Of a stretch of 64,000 nt of DNA, positions 20,289 to 30,036 are shown piece by piece. Both the position numbers and the translations under genes were made by a program. The stretch comes from Marinospirillum alkaliphilum DSM 21637 (GTDB lineage Bacteria; Pseudomonadota; Gammaproteobacteria; Pseudomonadales; Halomonadaceae), in contig NZ_FPJW01000006.1 of NCBI RefSeq assembly GCF_900119735.1, positions 1 to 64,000 of the forward strand. The letters are read 5' to 3'. Positions within the stretch are counted from its first letter, which is position 1. The number at the start of each line of letters is the position of its first letter. Under the pieces are notes generated by a model. The model had not been told where the DNA came from. It did not search any database and was given only the letters and a program-made list of their open reading frames with translations.

Positions 20289-20756
20289 TCAGTAGATCCC
20301 TGCTTCCAGTCCGGCGGCCACGGAAAGGCCCAGTTCTTCCACCTGTTTCAGAAACTCGTCCTGCCATTTGCCCCGCAAAGTCAGGGGTTCTTGTATCCAC
20401 TTCCAGCGTAACCCGGTCACGATGCTTTCCACCGCGCGACGGGTGCCGGTGCCATCCAGCCCTGCCCGAATAAACAATGCGCAGGGCAGCCCCTGCTTTT
20501 TTTCTAATACCGGGTAATAACACCGGTCAAAAAAATCCTTGAGTGCGCCACTCATGTAGCCCAGGTTTTCAGTGGTGCCAAGAATGATGGCATCGGCAGT
20601 CAGTACGTCTTCGGGTTGGGTTCGCAGTGGCGGAAGCCAGCGGGTATGCACCTGTTCAATATCCGGGTGGCTGGCACCCTGCAGCAGGGCATCCACCAGT
20701 TTCTGGGTGTTGGGTGAGGGTGCATGGGCGACCAGTAACAACTGCTTAGATGTCAT
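20289..20756 (-). CDS. Flavodoxin-like NAD(P)H-dependent reductase
   Basis: A 155-residue flavodoxin-fold protein. It has an N-terminal FMN loop (LLLVAHAPSPNTQKLVDALLQG), the segment ADAIILGTTENLGYMSGALKDFFDRCYYP, typical of the NADPH-dependent FMN reductase/WrbA-like group, and FIRAGLDGTGTRRAVESIVTGLRW. It probably transfers electrons from NAD(P)H via FMN; the acceptor is unknown. Its start overlaps the end of the DUF151-PDZ gene by 11 bases, so the two form an operon. Confidence 0.82.
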   Translation of the reverse strand: MTSKQLLLVAHAPSPNTQKLVDALLQGASHPDIEQVHTRWLPPLRTQPEDVLTADAIILGTTENLGYMSGALKDFFDRCYYPVLEKKQGLPCALFIRAGLDGTGTRRAVESIVTGLRWKWIQEPLTLRGKWQDEFLKQVEELGLSVAAGLEAGIY

Positions 20757-21609
20757 GAGCTGATCCTGAAGCGCTTCGGTCTGGCAGGGCAGGACGTTCC
20801 CTTTCCAGTCGTGGCAGTGTCAGTTGCCTTTCCCGATTGTTCTGCCAGTAGGTGATGCGTGTTTGTTCATCTCGTTCATGGCGGCGAATCAGCCTTAAAA
20901 ACTCCATCGGGGTGGCAGCAGGCTGATCGTTGATGCGGGTCAGCAGGTCGCCTGCTTTAAGACCACTGGATTGCAGGCTGCCACGTACATCCGTCACCAA
21001 TACCCCGGCCTGATCCGGCAGGCCCAGTGCTGCACGTAGATCGCTGGTGGCAAGGCCAACACTGATGCTGCGGGCAGAAACACCGAGGTCATCCAGGTCT
21101 TCCGGATTTACCTGTACGGCGCTGGCCAGCACTTCCGGTGCAACTAAAATGCGCGCACCGGAGCGCAGACCTAAAGCCAGGGCATCACTCGGGCGGCTAT
21201 CCACATAATGGTTGATGCCATCCTGCTGCAGGTGCAGAAACCCCATGTAAGAGCCATTCACCAGATCATCAATGATGATGCGTTCCAGCTGACCTTTTAA
21301 CAGGGGGATCAGTTCGCTGGCCAGGTCGTGTGTCATTGGGCGGGGGGTGATTTCATCCTGCAGGGCGGCATGAATGGCGCGGGCCTCGCTATGGCCAATG
21401 AAGATGGGAACCATCTGCTGGCTGCCGGGTGGGGCCAGCAGCACCACAGGAGTGCCATGGTGGGCCAGTAAAATACCGGAGACTTCCACTGGCACCAGTT
21501 GCTGCTCATCCAGTCGCAGCTCACGGGCCTGCAAGGGGGTTGCCAGCCAGGTCAGCAGCAGGACGAGCAGAAGCAGCAGTTTCATAAGACAGTTCATCCG
21601 AATGATCAT
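20746..21609 (-). CDS. Secreted DUF151 (bifunctional nuclease-like) protein with PDZ domain
   Basis: A 287-residue protein. A signal peptide (MKLLLLLVLLLTWLATPLQA) is followed by a DUF151/BFN domain (residues 35-165) with VVLLAPPGSQQMVPIFIGHSEA and the signature DSRPSDALALGLRSGARI. A PDZ domain follows (residues 185-265: AGVLVTDVRGSLQSSGLKAGDLLTRIND). DUF151 proteins are usually cytoplasmic and are linked to nuclease activity in plants and actinobacteria. Export and PDZ fusion suggest a different, periplasmic role. The start could be any of three nearby Met codons. It is coupled to the flavodoxin-like gene downstream. Confidence 0.85.
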   Translation of the reverse strand: MIIRMNCLMKLLLLLVLLLTWLATPLQARELRLDEQQLVPVEVSGILLAHHGTPVVLLAPPGSQQMVPIFIGHSEARAIHAALQDEITPRPMTHDLASELIPLLKGQLERIIIDDLVNGSYMGFLHLQQDGINHYVDSRPSDALALGLRSGARILVAPEVLASAVQVNPEDLDDLGVSARSISVGLATSDLRAALGLPDQAGVLVTDVRGSLQSSGLKAGDLLTRINDQPAATPMEFLRLIRRHERDEQTRITYWQNNRERQLTLPRLERERPALPDRSASGSAHDI

Positions 21610-24324: not shown

Positions 24325-24374
24325 GCAGACAGCAACTTGCCATGGTTGGGTGTCTGCATTAGGGTAAAAACCCT
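24325..24374 (+). other. Two consecutive hairpins upstream of the LolA-like operon
   Basis: GCAGACA-GCAAC (24325-24336) pairs with GTTG (24345) and TGTCTGC (24351-24357). Directly after it AGGGT (24361) pairs with ACCCT (24370). No T run follows. They end 22 bases before the first ATG of the operon, so they would lie in its leader RNA or serve as an operator. Confidence 0.5.
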
Positions 24375-24396: not shown

Positions 24397-25161
24397 ATGG
24401 TATTCAAATTGCTCCTGCAAGGACTGGTCGGTGTTCTACTGTGGACTGGTTTAACGCAGATTCAGGCGAGTCAGCCGAACCCACGTGAGTTGCTGCGTCA
24501 GATGGAGGCAGTGATGCGCGGTGACGCCAGTTATTTTGAAATGACCATGACACTGCAGCGCCCGCGTTACACCCGTGAATATGCGCTGAAAGGCTGGGAA
24601 ATGGGGCAGGACTATTCGCTGATCCTGATCACCGCACCGGCCCGTGATGCCGGAACGGTGTTTCTAAAGCGTCAGCGCGATATCTGGAATTATGTACCCA
24701 CCATTGATCGCACCATCAAAATGCCACCTTCGATGATGTCCCAGGCCTGGATGGGCTCGGATTTCAGCAATGATGACCTGGTGCGGGATGCCTCGGTGAT
24801 TGATGATTATCACCATCGTTTGTTGAGGGAAGAACCGGTGGATGGACGCATTGCCTGGGTGGTGGAGTTGATTCCAAAGCCGGATACGGCGATTGTCTGG
24901 GGCCGGGTGCTGATGTGGATTGATCAGCAAACCCATGTTCAGCTGCGCATTGAAAACCATGATCAGGATGGTCAGCTGGCCAGTACCCTGGTGTTTTCAG
25001 ATATCGGTGAGCTGGGCGGGCGGCTGCTGCCTCGTCGCATGCAGATGACGCCGGCGGATCGACCGGATCAGCACACCTTGCTGGAATATCAGGCGGCGGA
25101 CTTCAATCCTGAGCTGGATGAGCGTTTTTTCACGCGCCAGAACATGCAGCGGGTGCGCTGA
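24397..25161 (+). CDS. LolA-like outer-membrane lipoprotein-sorting protein
   Basis: A 254-residue periplasmic protein with a signal peptide (FKLLLQGLVGVLLWTGLTQIQA). The mature part fits the LolA-like family: ELLRQMEAVMRGDASYFEMTM, then KGWEMGQDYSLILITAPARDAGTVFLKRQRDIWNYVPTIDRTIKMPP and WVVELIPKPDTAIVWGRVLMWID. These build the open half-barrel that carries acyl chains. The start at 24397 has GAGG five bases away. It is the first gene of a five-gene operon with LolC/E-like permeases, which suggests it ferries a lipid or lipoprotein across the periplasm. It is distinct from housekeeping LolA. Confidence 0.85.
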   Translation: MVFKLLLQGLVGVLLWTGLTQIQASQPNPRELLRQMEAVMRGDASYFEMTMTLQRPRYTREYALKGWEMGQDYSLILITAPARDAGTVFLKRQRDIWNYVPTIDRTIKMPPSMMSQAWMGSDFSNDDLVRDASVIDDYHHRLLREEPVDGRIAWVVELIPKPDTAIVWGRVLMWIDQQTHVQLRIENHDQDGQLASTLVFSDIGELGGRLLPRRMQMTPADRPDQHTLLEYQAADFNPELDERFFTRQNMQRVR

Positions 25162-25162
25162 G

Positions 25163-26389
25163 ATGCTGTATCTGTCACTGGCCTGGCGCAACCTCTGGCG
25201 TAATGCCCGGCGTACCTTGATCACTCTGGCATCCATTGCGTTTGCGGTGGTGCTGGCGCTCTGGGTCAGTTCCATGAACCGGGGGTCCCATCAACTGATG
25301 GTGGACAACCTGTCGCGCTTTCACACCGGGTTTATCCAGCTGCAGGAACCGGCCTGGCTGGATGAGCCTTCACTGGATCATACCCTGACTTATGACCCTG
25401 CCCTGCAACAGCAGTTGCTGGCTGATACCCGGCTGGACTATCTGGTGCCTCGGCTGGAAACCTTCATGCTGGCCGGGGGTGCCGAGCAGGTGCGTGGTGC
25501 AATGGTGCTGGGCGTGGATGCGGCTGCTGAGCAGCAGTTGAATGGTTTGCAGGAACGGCTGATTGCCGGTGAGTTTTTTCAGCCCGGTGATGGGCGGGCC
25601 GTGCTGACAGAAGGCCTGGCGCGACGCCTGCAACTGACGGTGGGGGATGAACTGGTGTTGCTGGGGCAGGGACGCTTTGCCAGTTCTGCTGCCGGTTTGT
25701 TTGAAGTGGCCGGGGTAGTGCGCCATCCGCTGCGGGAGCTGGATAACCAACTGGTGTACCTGTCCCTGCCGGATGCCCAATGGTTATTGTCTGCAGAGCA
25801 GCAGGTGTCCACCCTGTTGCTGACCCCCCACCAGTTGCAGCAGACCGATGCACTGGTGAGCAGTCTGCGGCAGTCACTGGATGCACAACGCCATCGGGTG
25901 GTGCCCTGGCAGGAGTTGATGCCGGAAGTGCTGGGTGCCATACAGTTTGATCTGGCCCAGCAGAATTTTGTACTGGGCACCCTGTATATGGTGATTGGTT
26001 TTGGTCTGTTCGGCACCATTCTGATGATGACACTGGAGCGCACCCGTGAGTTTGGTGTGCTGATTTCACTGGGCATGCAGCGTTACCGGCTGAGTCTGGT
26101 GCTGCTGCTGGAAACCCTGATGCTCACGCTGCTGGGTGTGCTGGCCGGTTGCCTGCCCGGCTGGCTGCTGCTGCGGCATTTTCATCATAACCCCATCCAG
26201 TTGGGGGGTGACATGGCACAGGTCTTCGAGGACATGGGCATGGGGCTGGAGCCCATACTGCCGTTTGCACTGGATGCCGACCTGTTCATCACTCAGGGGT
26301 TGGTGTTGTTTGTGCTGTCTTTTCTGATCTGCCTTTATCCCGTGTTGCGGGTGCTGCGGCTGGATCTGATGACGGCGGCAAGGAGTTAA
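25163..26389 (+). CDS. FtsX/LolC-type ABC permease (first of two)
   Basis: A 408-residue type VII ABC permease: N-terminal TM (LAWRNLWRNARRTLITLASIAFAVVLALWVSS), a large MacB_PCD-like periplasmic domain (residues 40-265), then three TM helices. The first of these is preceded by FVLGTLYMVIGFGLFGTILMMTLERTREFGVLISLGM, the coupling region. The length equals LolC/LolE. ATG is one base after the stop of the LolA-like gene. It works as a mechanotransmission permease, likely forming a heterodimer with the next gene, rather than passing substrate through its core. Confidence 0.9.
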   Translation: MLYLSLAWRNLWRNARRTLITLASIAFAVVLALWVSSMNRGSHQLMVDNLSRFHTGFIQLQEPAWLDEPSLDHTLTYDPALQQQLLADTRLDYLVPRLETFMLAGGAEQVRGAMVLGVDAAAEQQLNGLQERLIAGEFFQPGDGRAVLTEGLARRLQLTVGDELVLLGQGRFASSAAGLFEVAGVVRHPLRELDNQLVYLSLPDAQWLLSAEQQVSTLLLTPHQLQQTDALVSSLRQSLDAQRHRVVPWQELMPEVLGAIQFDLAQQNFVLGTLYMVIGFGLFGTILMMTLERTREFGVLISLGMQRYRLSLVLLLETLMLTLLGVLAGCLPGWLLLRHFHHNPIQLGGDMAQVFEDMGMGLEPILPFALDADLFITQGLVLFVLSFLICLYPVLRVLRLDLMTAARS

Positions 26390-26392
26390 GGC

Positions 26393-27613
26393 ATGACAAC
26401 CTTGATGCTGCTGGCCTGGCGTAATGTCTGGCGTAACCCCGCCCGAAGTGCAGTGCTGCTGCTGGCCATTGCGCTGGGTCTGTGGGCTGGATTGCTGATG
26501 GTGGCGGTCAGTCAGGGCATGCTGGTGCAGCGTTTTGAGCGCCTGATCGAACAGGAGTTCTCACACCTGCAGGTGCATCACCCGCAGTTTCTGACCGAGC
26601 GGGAGGTGCAGGATCATCTGCCGGACGTTGCAGCCTTGCAACACTGGTTGCAACAACAGCCCGAGCTGCGTGAACACACCCTGCGGGTGCTGGTGGATGG
26701 CATGATTCAATCACCGGCACTGACGGCCGGGGTGGAAATCCGGGGGGTGGATCCGCAGCGGGAGCGGCGTGTTTCGCAGCTGGATACCACCTTGAATCAG
26801 GGGAAGTATCTGGATGCAGCGCTGCGCAATCCGATATTGATGGGCGCAAGGCTGGCGGAAAAACTGCGTGTCCGGCCCGGTCAGCGAGTGGTGCTGACGT
26901 TTCAGGATACGCGTCAGGAGCTGGTTTCGGCCTCCTTCACCTTGAGTGGCACTTTCACCAGCCTGTCGCGGGCTGAAGAGGAAAGTCGGGTGTATGTGCC
27001 GGCGGAGGTGTTGTCCGCTTACCTGGCTGATCAGGCAATCTGGCATCAACTGGCGGTGTTGTTGCAACATCCTGATCAGGGCAGTGCCGTGGCAGCCCGC
27101 CTGCAGCAGGCTTTTCCGCAGGTGCAGGCATTGGCCTGGCTGGAATTGTCGCCAGAACTGCGTTTTCTGACGGAAATGGGTGATCTGCTGACCTGGATAT
27201 TGATCGGTGTGATTCTGCTGGCGCTGGCGTTTGGATTGCTCAACACCCTGCTGATGGCCACATTTGAGCGTACCCATGAACTGGGCATGCTGCTGGCCAT
27301 CGGCATGAACAAGCGACGGGTGTTTGGTCTGATCACTCTTGAGTCCTTGTTGATCACCGCCAGCGGTGCCTTGCTGGGTGTGCTGCTGGCGCTATTGAAC
27401 ATCAACTGGCTGGCACGTGAAGGCCTGGATCTGAGTCGTTTTGGCGGTGCTGCGCTGGCAGAGTTTGGTTATGACACACTGATTGTTCCAGTGCTGGGCA
27501 GTGATGAGCTGCTGGCTGTGGCACTGTTGGTGGTGCTGACGGCGCTGCTGGCAGCCCTTTATCCGGCTTGGAAGGCACTGCAACTGAATCCGGCACAAGC
27601 CGTACGCAACTGA
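26393..27613 (+). CDS. FtsX/LolE-type ABC permease (second of two)
   Basis: A 406-residue paralog of the preceding gene with the same plan. TM1 is LLAWRNVWRNPARSAVLLLAIALGLWAG, and a periplasmic MacB_PCD-like domain covers residues 45-265. The C-terminal TM bundle contains LLTWILIGVILLALAFGLLNTLLMATFERTHELGMLLAIGM and ends in LYPAWKALQLNPAQAVR, the FtsX-family signature. It starts three bases after the stop of the first permease. Two different permeases plus one ATPase is the LolCDE arrangement. Confidence 0.92.
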   Translation: MTTLMLLAWRNVWRNPARSAVLLLAIALGLWAGLLMVAVSQGMLVQRFERLIEQEFSHLQVHHPQFLTEREVQDHLPDVAALQHWLQQQPELREHTLRVLVDGMIQSPALTAGVEIRGVDPQRERRVSQLDTTLNQGKYLDAALRNPILMGARLAEKLRVRPGQRVVLTFQDTRQELVSASFTLSGTFTSLSRAEEESRVYVPAEVLSAYLADQAIWHQLAVLLQHPDQGSAVAARLQQAFPQVQALAWLELSPELRFLTEMGDLLTWILIGVILLALAFGLLNTLLMATFERTHELGMLLAIGMNKRRVFGLITLESLLITASGALLGVLLALLNINWLAREGLDLSRFGGAALAEFGYDTLIVPVLGSDELLAVALLVVLTALLAALYPAWKALQLNPAQAVRN

Positions 27614-27624
27614 CAGGACAAATC

Positions 27625-28329
27625 ATGGCCATCATCACCACCCACGGATTGAGCAAGGTGTATCAGGCTGGCAAGGTGCCGGTGCATGCCTTGCGGGATG
27701 TTGATCTGAGTATTGAGGAAGGGGAATTCACCAGCATTGTCGGGCCTTCCGGTTCGGGCAAAACCACGCTGCTGAACCAGTTGGGTGGGCTGGATCGGCC
27801 CAGCAGTGGTGAGGTCTGGGTGGATGGATGCAACATCAGCGCGCTGAAAGACAGCCAGTTGATTGACTACCGCCTGCGCCACATCGGTTTTATCTTTCAG
27901 TCCTATAACCTGCTGCCGGTGTTCACGGCGGCTGAAAATGTGGCGTTCATTCTGCTGTTGCAGGGTGAGAAGAAAGACCGGATTCGCCAGCGGGTCAGTG
28001 AACTGCTGACGGAAGTGGGGCTGGGTGATCGCATGGATGCCCGCCCCCGAGAGCTGTCCGGTGGTCAGCAGCAACGGGTTGCCGTGGCCAGGGCACTGGC
28101 ATCACGCCCACGTTTCATTCTGGCGGATGAGCCCACCGCCAATCTCGACAGCCAATCGGCGATGAAGCTTTTGGACATCATGGAAAAGATGAATCGGGAG
28201 CATCGCATGACCTTCATTTTTTCCACTCATGACCAGCGGGTGATTGAGCGGGCCAGACGGGTCATTCGTATGGTGGATGGTGCCATTGAAAGTGATCAGG
28301 TCCAGCAGCCGGAGCCACACCAGGCATGA
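27625..28329 (+). CDS. LolD/MacB-type ABC ATPase
   Basis: A 234-residue ATPase that would power the two preceding permeases. Walker A is GPSGSGKTT, the Q-loop FIFQSYNLLPVFTAAENV, the signature LSGGQQQRVAVARAL, Walker B ILADEPTANLD and the switch His in FSTHD. The Q-loop sequence SYNLLPVFTAxEN is typical of LolD/MacB/FtsE ATPases. The start at 27625 leaves an 11-base gap after the permease. Its stop overlaps the barrel gene (ATGA), binding that gene firmly to the operon. Confidence 0.95.
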   Translation: MAIITTHGLSKVYQAGKVPVHALRDVDLSIEEGEFTSIVGPSGSGKTTLLNQLGGLDRPSSGEVWVDGCNISALKDSQLIDYRLRHIGFIFQSYNLLPVFTAAENVAFILLLQGEKKDRIRQRVSELLTEVGLGDRMDARPRELSGGQQQRVAVARALASRPRFILADEPTANLDSQSAMKLLDIMEKMNREHRMTFIFSTHDQRVIERARRVIRMVDGAIESDQVQQPEPHQA

Positions 28330-29477
28330 AACTGCGGCTTTGTCTGGCTGTGCTGCTGTTGTGCTGGCAGAGTGCCTTGATTCAGGCCGACAACCTGGAG
28401 ATCAGCGGTTACTGGCAAGTGATGCCGGTGTATCTGGAGCTGGACGATCCGCAGACCGGTGAACAGCAGGGCTGGTGGGATTACCGGGCACAGAACCGCC
28501 TGAACCTGCGCTGGTTTGCCAGTGACAGCGTGAATGTCACCTGGCAGATGCGAACCCGTTATTTTGCCGGTGACCTGGTGCAGGAACTGCCCGGTTATAA
28601 GCAGTCAGTGGCGCAGGACGCCGGTTATTTTAATCTGTCCGCCACGCTGGTGGACGACCGGCAGCAATTGCTGCATTACAACACCGACCGCTTGTTTGTG
28701 GAGTGGCAGCAACCCGACTGGAACCTGCGGGCCGGGCGGCAACGCATCAACTGGGGCGTTAATCTGCTCACCAACCCCAGTGACCTGTTTAATATCGATT
28801 CCCTTTATGCTTTTGATTATCCCGAGCGTCCCGGTGCTGATGCTTTGCGCCTACAGCACTCTCTGGGCATGGCCGGGCACTGGGAGCTGGCTGCCAGTCG
28901 TGGTGCCTCCGCCGAGGATTCAGTGGTGGCGGGCTTGTTGGCGTTCAACTGGCAGATGGTGGATCTGCAAGGGGTTGCCGGCCGTTATCGTGAGCGTTTT
29001 GCCCTGGGCGCTGGCTGGGCCAGTAATCTGGGGGAGGCCGGTTTTAAGGGTGAAGTCATGTGGTTCCGGGATCGGGCAGCCGATGCCGAGGGTGAATATC
29101 CCCATTCAGGCGTGGTGGCAATATCGCTGGATTACATGTTCAGTAACGGGCTGTTTGCCGTGCTGGAAGCACTCTGGAATGAGCAGGGTGGCCAGCAGCA
29201 GCCCTTAGTGTTTCAGCCGACAGCAGACAATCCCTCGCTCACGCGTCGGCAATTGGCCAGCCAGTTGACTTATACCGTTAACCCCTTGCTGGATCTGAGC
29301 CTGACCGGACTGCTGTATCTGGATGAAGAGGCCGTGTTTCTGGCACCGGCTGTGCGTTTTTCACTGCTGCCGGACCTGGACTGGCACAGTCAGGCGCAGT
29401 TTCATCTGGCTGGCGGTGATTCCGCCTTGCGGCAGGCAGGCAGTTTGCTGGCAACTTCGTTACAATGGAATTTTTGA
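28326..29477 (+). CDS. Outer-membrane beta-barrel protein of the LolCDE-like operon
   Basis: A 383-residue protein with a signal peptide (MKLRLCLAVLLLCWQSALIQA). It shows many alternating amphipathic strands ending in aromatic residues (LRWFASDSVNVTWQMRTRYF, RLFVEWQQPDWNLRAGRQRI). It ends in SLQWNF; a terminal Phe is the signal for BAM-dependent assembly. Segments such as GRQRINWG and FNIDSLYAFDYPERPGADALR recall DUF1302/alginate-export-like porins. I do not recognise a specific function. Overlap with the ABC ATPase gene implies it is the outer-membrane end of the same pathway, in the place where LolB would act. Confidence 0.8.
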   Translation: MKLRLCLAVLLLCWQSALIQADNLEISGYWQVMPVYLELDDPQTGEQQGWWDYRAQNRLNLRWFASDSVNVTWQMRTRYFAGDLVQELPGYKQSVAQDAGYFNLSATLVDDRQQLLHYNTDRLFVEWQQPDWNLRAGRQRINWGVNLLTNPSDLFNIDSLYAFDYPERPGADALRLQHSLGMAGHWELAASRGASAEDSVVAGLLAFNWQMVDLQGVAGRYRERFALGAGWASNLGEAGFKGEVMWFRDRAADAEGEYPHSGVVAISLDYMFSNGLFAVLEALWNEQGGQQQPLVFQPTADNPSLTRRQLASQLTYTVNPLLDLSLTGLLYLDEEAVFLAPAVRFSLLPDLDWHSQAQFHLAGGDSALRQAGSLLATSLQWNF

Positions 29478-29493: not shown

Positions 29494-30036
29494 ATGGCTC
29501 TACGTTCCAGCGTGGTGAAAGCCCAGCTGCAGATTGCCGACATGGATCGGCATTATTACCAGGATCACAACCTGACCCTGGCACAACACCCTTCTGAAAC
29601 CGATCTGCGCCTGATGGTGCGCCTGCTGGCGTTTGCGCTGAATGCTTCTGAGCAGCTGCAGTTTTCCAGCAACCTGAGTGATGAAGGTGAGCCGGAACTG
29701 AGTGAGAAGAACCTGCATGGGGATATTGAGCTGTGGGTGGCCTTCGGACAACCGGATGAAAAATGGCTGCGTAAAGCCTGCCAGCGGTCAGCACGGGTTC
29801 GGCTGTATGCCTATGGCGGTCGGGCTGTACCCATCTGGTTACAGCAGAATGCCAAGGAATTAAAGCGGTTTGACAACCTGGAACTCTGGGAAGTCCCGGA
29901 GCAGGATGCCCAGGCGCTGGCTGGCTTATATGGCCGCTCCATGCAACTCCAGTGCACCATCAACGAAGGCCAGGTGTGGCTGTCGGATGGTGACACCAGT
30001 GTGCAGGTGGAGTTGAAGCGACTCGGCTTTGATTAA
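29494..30036 (+). CDS. yaeQ: YaeQ family protein
   Basis: A 180-residue protein of the YaeQ family. It has a PD-(D/E)XK-like fold but no demonstrated nuclease activity; the E. coli protein was once tied to RfaH suppression. Recognised from the start ALRSSVVKAQLQIADMDRHYYQ, HPSETDLRLMVRLLAFAL, EKNLHGDIELWVAFGQPDEKWLRKA and RLYAYGG. It follows the barrel gene by 16 bases on the same strand and may be co-transcribed, but YaeQ genes occur in many contexts. It meets the DUF2237 gene tail to tail with no gap. Confidence 0.93.
   Translation: MALRSSVVKAQLQIADMDRHYYQDHNLTLAQHPSETDLRLMVRLLAFALNASEQLQFSSNLSDEGEPELSEKNLHGDIELWVAFGQPDEKWLRKACQRSARVRLYAYGGRAVPIWLQQNAKELKRFDNLELWEVPEQDAQALAGLYGRSMQLQCTINEGQVWLSDGDTSVQVELKRLGFD

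Follow-up and report, generated by a model that had tools for sequence, protein, structure and literature searches.

LolCDE, MacB and the MMPL/RND pumps are exporters. MMPL/RND pumps carry lipids and small hydrophobes, and in mycobacteria, MMPL proteins carry lipids to the outer membrane. The Lol system (LolCDE-LolA-LolB) has two LolC/E-type permeases, a LolD-type ATPase, a carrier with the LolA fold, and the lipoprotein LolB. In E. coli, LolA is recruited by a stretch of LolC known as the Hook, which is essential (PMC10865981).

Several described systems combine an inner-membrane transporter with a LolA-like protein. AmeABCD from Castellaniella defragrans is described as an efflux system for apolar monoterpenes, and a single gene cassette encodes its RND pump, its DUF1302 barrel, its DUF1329 carrier (from the LolA superfamily) and an extra component, AmeC (PMC6394551). 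In Thalassolituus, an MMPL protein, a LolA-like protein and an adjacent predicted porin increase on C28 alkane (PMC6304351). In Porphyromonas gingivalis and Prevotella intermedia, sets with an MMPL protein, a LolA-like protein and a “hypothetical protein” increase strongly under a shortage of iron or hemin (PMC10434189, PMC10470040). These relatives with functional data have an RND engine. The Borrelia cluster BBJ23-29 encodes a LolA-like carrier, a MacB/LolE-like ABC transporter with a single permease, an Omp85-type outer-membrane barrel and two TPR proteins, and a non-polar ligand was proposed for it (PMC13078400). Among the matches listed for the open-licence PMC literature, we found no description of a system with a PF17131 carrier, a LolCDE-type transporter and a DUF1302-like barrel. 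Here we describe such a set of genes.

A compact five-gene operon

We analyzed a stretch of 64,000 nucleotides from Marinospirillum alkaliphilum DSM 21637 (contig NZ_FPJW01000006.1, positions 1 to 64,000), which we will call the window. A previous sequence-only reading described five tightly packed genes at 24397-29477, and both the coordinates of the open reading frames and the family matches agree. All five are on the + strand. They encode a LolA-like periplasmic carrier (254 amino acids; 24397-25161), two LolC/E-type permeases (permease 1, 408 amino acids, 25163-26389; permease 2, 406 amino acids, 26393-27613), a LolD-like ATPase (234 amino acids; 27625-28329), and an outer-membrane barrel that ends with phenylalanine (383 amino acids; 28326-29477). 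The first four genes are separated by gaps of 1 base (25161/25163), 3 bases (26389/26393) and 11 bases (27613/27625), and the ATPase and barrel genes share a 4-base overlap, ATGA (28326-28329). Longer upstream starts are possible for three of the genes (24322, 25118 and 27568). The longer starts for permease 1 and the ATPase would run into the preceding gene, and for the carrier, the originally chosen start codon (24397) is where the signal peptide begins.

Upstream of the operon, an inverted repeat (7+7 bases, 19 apart; 24325-24357) may be an operator, or it might be due to chance. Scans for promoters and terminators gave results at the chance level. A gene for YaeQ (29494-30036, + strand) begins 16 bases past the barrel gene and may be cotranscribed with it; YaeQ is not among the recurring neighbors of the operon in the relatives' loci. 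On the other side of the operon, 20746-21609 (- strand) encodes an apparent signal peptide and a bifunctional-nuclease domain (PF02577) joined to a PDZ domain.

Both permeases match FtsX and MacB_PCD above the cut-offs, and the model of permease 1 (pLDDT 90.6) has four transmembrane helices and a periplasmic domain. These are the domains of MacB, which belongs to the same transporter superfamily. Unlike in MacAB-TolC, the ATPase is separate from the permease, there is a LolA-like carrier, and none of the five genes encodes an adaptor or a TolC-type channel, so we rejected MacAB-TolC as the identity of this system. Among proteins in the PDB, permease 1 matches LolF (E = 1.3e-11), LolC (6.6e-6) and MacB (7.8e-4), and permease 2 matches LolF (3.4e-10), LolC (1.1e-8) and MacB (7.3e-6). 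By sequence, both permeases are nearer to LolF, LolC and LolE than to MacB.

Conservation and distribution

Permease 1 has matches at 1e-20 in 48 of 369 genomes of Gammaproteobacteria, including the window's own. Among the other 47 genomes, 37 contributed the 40 loci that we read; the remaining 10 genomes have one match each, at 2e-25 to 4e-21. We also read two records from a plasmid collection and, from named genomes, the 80 relatives most like the query out of at least 555. The named set was ranked by that likeness and is not a census.

The exact order of LolA-like carrier, permease, permease, ATPase and barrel is found in 23 of the 40 gammaproteobacterial loci, in 49 of the 80 named loci (the top 80 of at least 555), and in both plasmid records. 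The other loci are on cut contigs, are variants, or are missing a part. This order recurs far more often than would occur by chance. We considered the barrel to be assessable if at least 2.2 kb followed the last permease. By this standard, and using a barrel profile that had absorbed the genome's own RND-linked barrel, 33 of 35 gammaproteobacterial loci and 61 of 64 named loci (from the top 80 of at least 555) have the barrel. It is absent from L045, L072, L132, L134 and L145. The sequence-only reading had called for a check of synteny across the Gammaproteobacteria and had asked if the barrel might be missing from most syntenic operons; instead, the five-gene unit is conserved and nearly all of the assessable loci carry the barrel. 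These counts, and the similar placement of the window in trees for the barrel and the permease, rule out the barrel being a chance neighbor.

Nearly all of the best 80 (of at least 555) named relatives are from Bacteroidota, Balneolota and neighboring groups. We built quick trees from 76 complete operons, with SH-aLRT as the only measure of support. In the trees for permease 1 and for the barrel, the window's copy groups with four Balneolota and with one of the Pseudomonadales from a soda lake (SH-aLRT of 98 and 100), while the 24 gammaproteobacterial operons from our sample of the class form one group, apart from the window's copy. So, going by these relatives, the set does not belong mainly to marine gammaproteobacteria, where the sequence-only reading had placed similar gene sets.

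We found no match to the barrel in 150 other genomes from the same family, including 7 from the same genus. In two of those 7 congeners, YaeQ lies 1.7 to 2.6 kb from an FMN-reductase gene, and there is no match to the carrier, a permease or the barrel between them. Because the window's copy groups with Balneolota and the barrel is missing from the 150 genomes of the same family, the unit was probably acquired laterally, as a whole. The GC content of the operon is 0.581, versus 0.546 for the window, which is a weak sign of transfer.

The carrier and the barrel

The carrier matches PF17131 (LolA_like) with 184.7 bits, far above the cut-off of 30. It also matches DUF1329 (26.3 bits) and MucB_RseB, each just above its own cut-off, and it has no match to PF03548 (LolA) at E ≤ 1. 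By eye, its signal peptide lacks a lipobox. The nearest relatives with solved structures are 3buu, 9tp6, 4z48 and 3bk5.

We identified the outer-membrane barrel from its AlphaFold model, from its conserved columns, and from its homology to RND-linked barrels (see below). The model was built with 44 sequences (pLDDT 93.6, pTM 0.86), and by our own count, it has about 18 predicted strands. Many of the invariant residues lie within or beside a segment that is not a strand (residues 140-170). In a Foldseek search, the 50 best rows were all porin-type barrels; MOMP and AlgE, for example, had TM scores of about 0.55. No PDB sequence matched the family profile at E ≤ 10. Unlike in Borrelia, the window's barrel has no match to the Omp85 family, and Omp85 is not among the families matched by 46 related barrels (E ≤ 0.01).

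Almost the only Pfam match for the window's barrel is to DUF1302 (PF06980), with 15.2 bits, which is below the cut-off of 23.2. Across the 46 related barrels, 10 match DUF1302 at E ≤ 0.01, and two divergent ABC-linked barrels score above the cut-off (54.7 and 43.1 bits). An hhalign comparison between the barrel family and the genome's single DUF1302 protein was not significant, so it is the divergent ABC-linked barrels that tie the family to DUF1302 itself.

Similar carriers and barrels beside RND pumps

The M. alkaliphilum genome encodes another carrier and barrel of this kind. At C18, genes for an AraC-family regulator, an MMPL/RND pump, a PF17131 protein and a barrel occur in a row. This barrel has 461 amino acids, versus 383 for the operon's barrel. 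At C22, a DUF1329 protein (501.6 bits, with PF17131 just above its cut-off) adjoins the DUF1302 barrel (493.3 bits). These two genes also adjoin a gene for a MalT-like regulator of the LuxR family (L011, 1779-7914).

More broadly, PF17131 has a match in 46 of 75 genomes of Gammaproteobacteria. If we consider the best-scoring place in each genome, 37 of the 46 have an RND pump within 4.5 kb (within 300 bp for 33 of the 37), 5 are beside an ABC pump, and 4 are beside neither in the stretch that we read. So, RND/MMPL pumps are a commoner partner for the PF17131 carrier and its barrel than ABC pumps are. Carriers linked to either type of pump pass the cut-offs of both PF17131 and DUF1329.

We compared the two groups of barrels by using a profile from 44 ABC-linked barrels, with no RND-linked rows. 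This profile has 10 matches in 45 loci: 2 are ABC-linked, and 8 adjoin an RND-linked carrier. The RND-linked matches include those from Puteibacter (2.8e-11) and from M. alkaliphilum itself (5.6e-11), as well as three weak ones (6.5e-4, 1.0e-3 and 5.4e-3). In other words, the profile directly matched barrels in 8 of 38 RND-linked loci; the other 30 are tied in only through intermediate barrels. Using hhalign, the ABC-linked barrels match 6 long RND-linked barrels with 97.3% and 29 small RND-linked barrels with 99.2%, where the small barrels had been chosen with an earlier profile that included the genome's RND-linked barrel. These sequence comparisons indicate that the ABC-linked and RND-linked barrels are homologous. 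Thus, the MMPL/RND-PF17131-barrel operons (the set on C18, or TOL_3187/3188 in Thalassolituus) resemble the operon in the window in the family of the carrier and in having a homologous barrel. They differ in having a proton-driven RND pump and, for the set on C18, a longer barrel.

Regulators and neighboring genes

Our TetR profile was built from 10 seeds from these loci (5 ABC-linked and 5 RND-linked), and Pfam confirmed that five ABC-linked examples and two RND-linked examples are TetR proteins. In 44 of the 64 named ABC loci that have enough upstream sequence (from the top 80 of at least 555), the carrier gene has a TetR gene no more than 700 bp away. The two types of operons are alike in this respect, as 15 of 36 RND pumps have a TetR gene beside them. 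Another 4 loci have a MarR-like gene instead; of the two that we checked, one passes the MarR model and the other only nears a winged-helix model. None of 33 gammaproteobacterial ABC loci has a TetR gene nearby, and there is no regulator gene beside the operon in the window.

The recurring neighbors are mainly TetR, a gene of about 220 amino acids (see below) and the MarR-like regulators. The rest do not point to a substrate. In particular, among the neighbors of the loci that we read, no gene family for lipid biosynthesis recurs, and neither does any catabolic gene family.

The dearth of recurring catabolic neighbors argues against uptake, in which hydrophobic molecules would be brought inward via the barrel and the carrier. 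Also, the pump's closest relatives (LolCDE and MacB) and the MMPL/RND pumps are exporters. We consider uptake to be very improbable, even though the porin beside MMPL and the LolA-like protein of Thalassolituus was proposed to pass long-chain alkanes (PMC6304351) and relatives rise if iron or hemin is limited (PMC10434189, PMC10470040).

Alternatively, the transporter might build an outer membrane with a particular endogenous lipid (for instance a glycolipid, a pigment or a polyene lipid), instead of removing toxic compounds. Acyl chains would suit LolA-like carriers, and the mycobacterial MMPL proteins are a precedent for moving lipids to the outer membrane. We doubt this explanation: neighbors for lipid biosynthesis do not recur, and the operon's distribution is patchy, with lateral movement. 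It also overlaps with the export of hydrophobic molecules, which we favor below and whose cargo we leave general.

Comparison to the Lol system

The operon's permeases score 91.6 and 112.3 bits against the equivalog model for LolC/E (TIGR02212), which is below its cut-off of 362 bits. The ATPase matches ABC_tran with 121 bits, and its best NCBIfam model is LolD, at 239.1 bits, below the equivalog cut-off of 308 bits. With the Hook defined as in PMC10865981, 5 residues of this stretch are absent from all 30 of the operon permeases that we compared (the 2 from the window and 28 from 14 other complete operons). In the model of permease 1, only a short turn is predicted at this position. LolC/E from the same genome has the Hook stretch.

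M. alkaliphilum also encodes LolB, a PF03548 LolA away from the operon, and a true LolC/E whose gene adjoins a LolD-like gene. All 38 of the tested genomes of Gammaproteobacteria with the ABC system, including the window's, have both a LolC/E above the equivalog cut-off and a PF03548 LolA. So, we did not find genomes that have the set and no other Lol system, which the sequence-only reading would have taken as a sign of the ordinary Lol pathway. Its proposal of a dedicated route that reaches the outer membrane and is distinct from housekeeping Lol fits with this coexistence and with the conservation of the barrel. Because of the coexisting true Lol proteins, the missing Hook and the scores below the equivalog cut-offs, we exclude the ordinary Lol pathway. 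The operon does share two LolC/E-type permeases, a LolD-type ATPase and a LolA-fold carrier with Lol; it differs in having a barrel, in lacking the Hook stretch and the lipoprotein LolB, and in that its carrier belongs to PF17131 and not to PF03548.

A separate system could still carry lipoproteins. The permeases and the ATPase are closest to LolF, LolC or LolE and to LolD, the carrier's family is named after lipoprotein sorting, and the Borrelia set of a LolA-like protein, an ABC transporter and an Omp85 protein was proposed to move, possibly, lipoproteins (PMC13078400). We think that lipoprotein cargo is unlikely because the Hook, which is essential for recruiting LolA in E. coli (PMC10865981), has no counterpart in the 30 permeases compared, because TetR and MarR-type regulators are near many of the relatives outside the gammaproteobacterial set, and because this kind of carrier and barrel also occurs with MMPL/RND pumps as the engine, whose cargo is lipids and small hydrophobes. 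The original guess at the cargo was a lipid, a lipoprotein or a hydrophobic compound; we retain the first and the last and disfavor the lipoprotein.

A proposed export route

We favor the view that the operon probably encodes an ATP-driven exporter that relays a hydrophobic small molecule or a lipid via the carrier, with both the cargo and the direction being inferred. By analogy to LolCDE, the two permeases and the ATPase would pull an amphipathic molecule out of the inner membrane, from its outer leaflet. As expected from its family, the LolA-like protein would hold the molecule in its cavity and cross the periplasm. The barrel would then take the molecule and either release it into the outer membrane or pass it across. 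This scheme would be that of AmeABCD-type exporters (an RND/MMPL pump, a LolA-like or DUF1329 carrier and a barrel) with an ABC transporter replacing the RND pump. The carrier and the barrel would be the common outward half, and the engine would be exchangeable. Because its engine is a LolCDE-type ABC transporter instead of RND/MMPL, the operon is a variant of the AmeABCD-type exporters and not a member. It also lacks AmeC, and its barrel and carrier are smaller than those of AmeABCD (PMC6394551).

Some observations count against an exporter. These include the lack of TetR genes in the gammaproteobacterial ABC loci (0/33) and of a regulator beside the window's operon, as well as the barrel's score below the DUF1302 cut-off and its family's direct matches to only 8/38 RND-linked loci. 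Also, the rise of the MMPL sets of oral Bacteroidota under iron or hemin limitation is a poor fit to plain solvent efflux.

A broader idea, which we put forward tentatively, is that the carrier and the barrel of about 18 strands may form a stand-alone outward half that is coupled to two unrelated engines, either proton-driven MMPL/RND pumps or ATP-driven LolCDE-type transporters. This could be a general means of exporting hydrophobics across the envelope, without a TolC channel or an adaptor, in Bacteroidota, Balneolota, Chlorobiota, Zixibacteria and Gammaproteobacteria. If so, then hydrophobic compounds leave Gram-negative cells by a route, built from a carrier and a barrel, that is parallel to the TolC pumps and whose engine is interchangeable (ATP or proton). 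LolCDE-type transporters would also include a branch without the Hook that recruits LolA, which would be a natural contrast for studying how Lol chooses its cargo. Scattered annotations of “outer membrane lipoprotein-sorting protein” become one testable system.

Variants of the operon

In 5 loci, a single fused permease of 835 amino acids is encoded after the ATPase, and 4 loci have an additional, third permease. Sets with a single permease are found in L052 and in L213, which is from Vibrio campbellii. The set in L213 is a second ABC set, with an ATPase, one permease, a LolA-like carrier and a barrel, and is perhaps a homodimeric version.

A divergent group from Gammaproteobacteria (L081-L084) has barrels of about 600 amino acids, and the carrier gene is inverted in three of these loci. 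We scanned two of these barrels (L082, 10943-12763; L083, 10507-12315). Both are ABC-linked DUF1302 barrels and have a SPOR domain at the N terminus; through this domain, the barrel might be linked to peptidoglycan.

Finally, the gene of about 220 amino acids lies between the ATPase and the barrel in L110, L111, L114 and L126; in a fifth locus, it follows the ATPase at the end of the contig. We checked the copy from L111, and it has a CAP domain.
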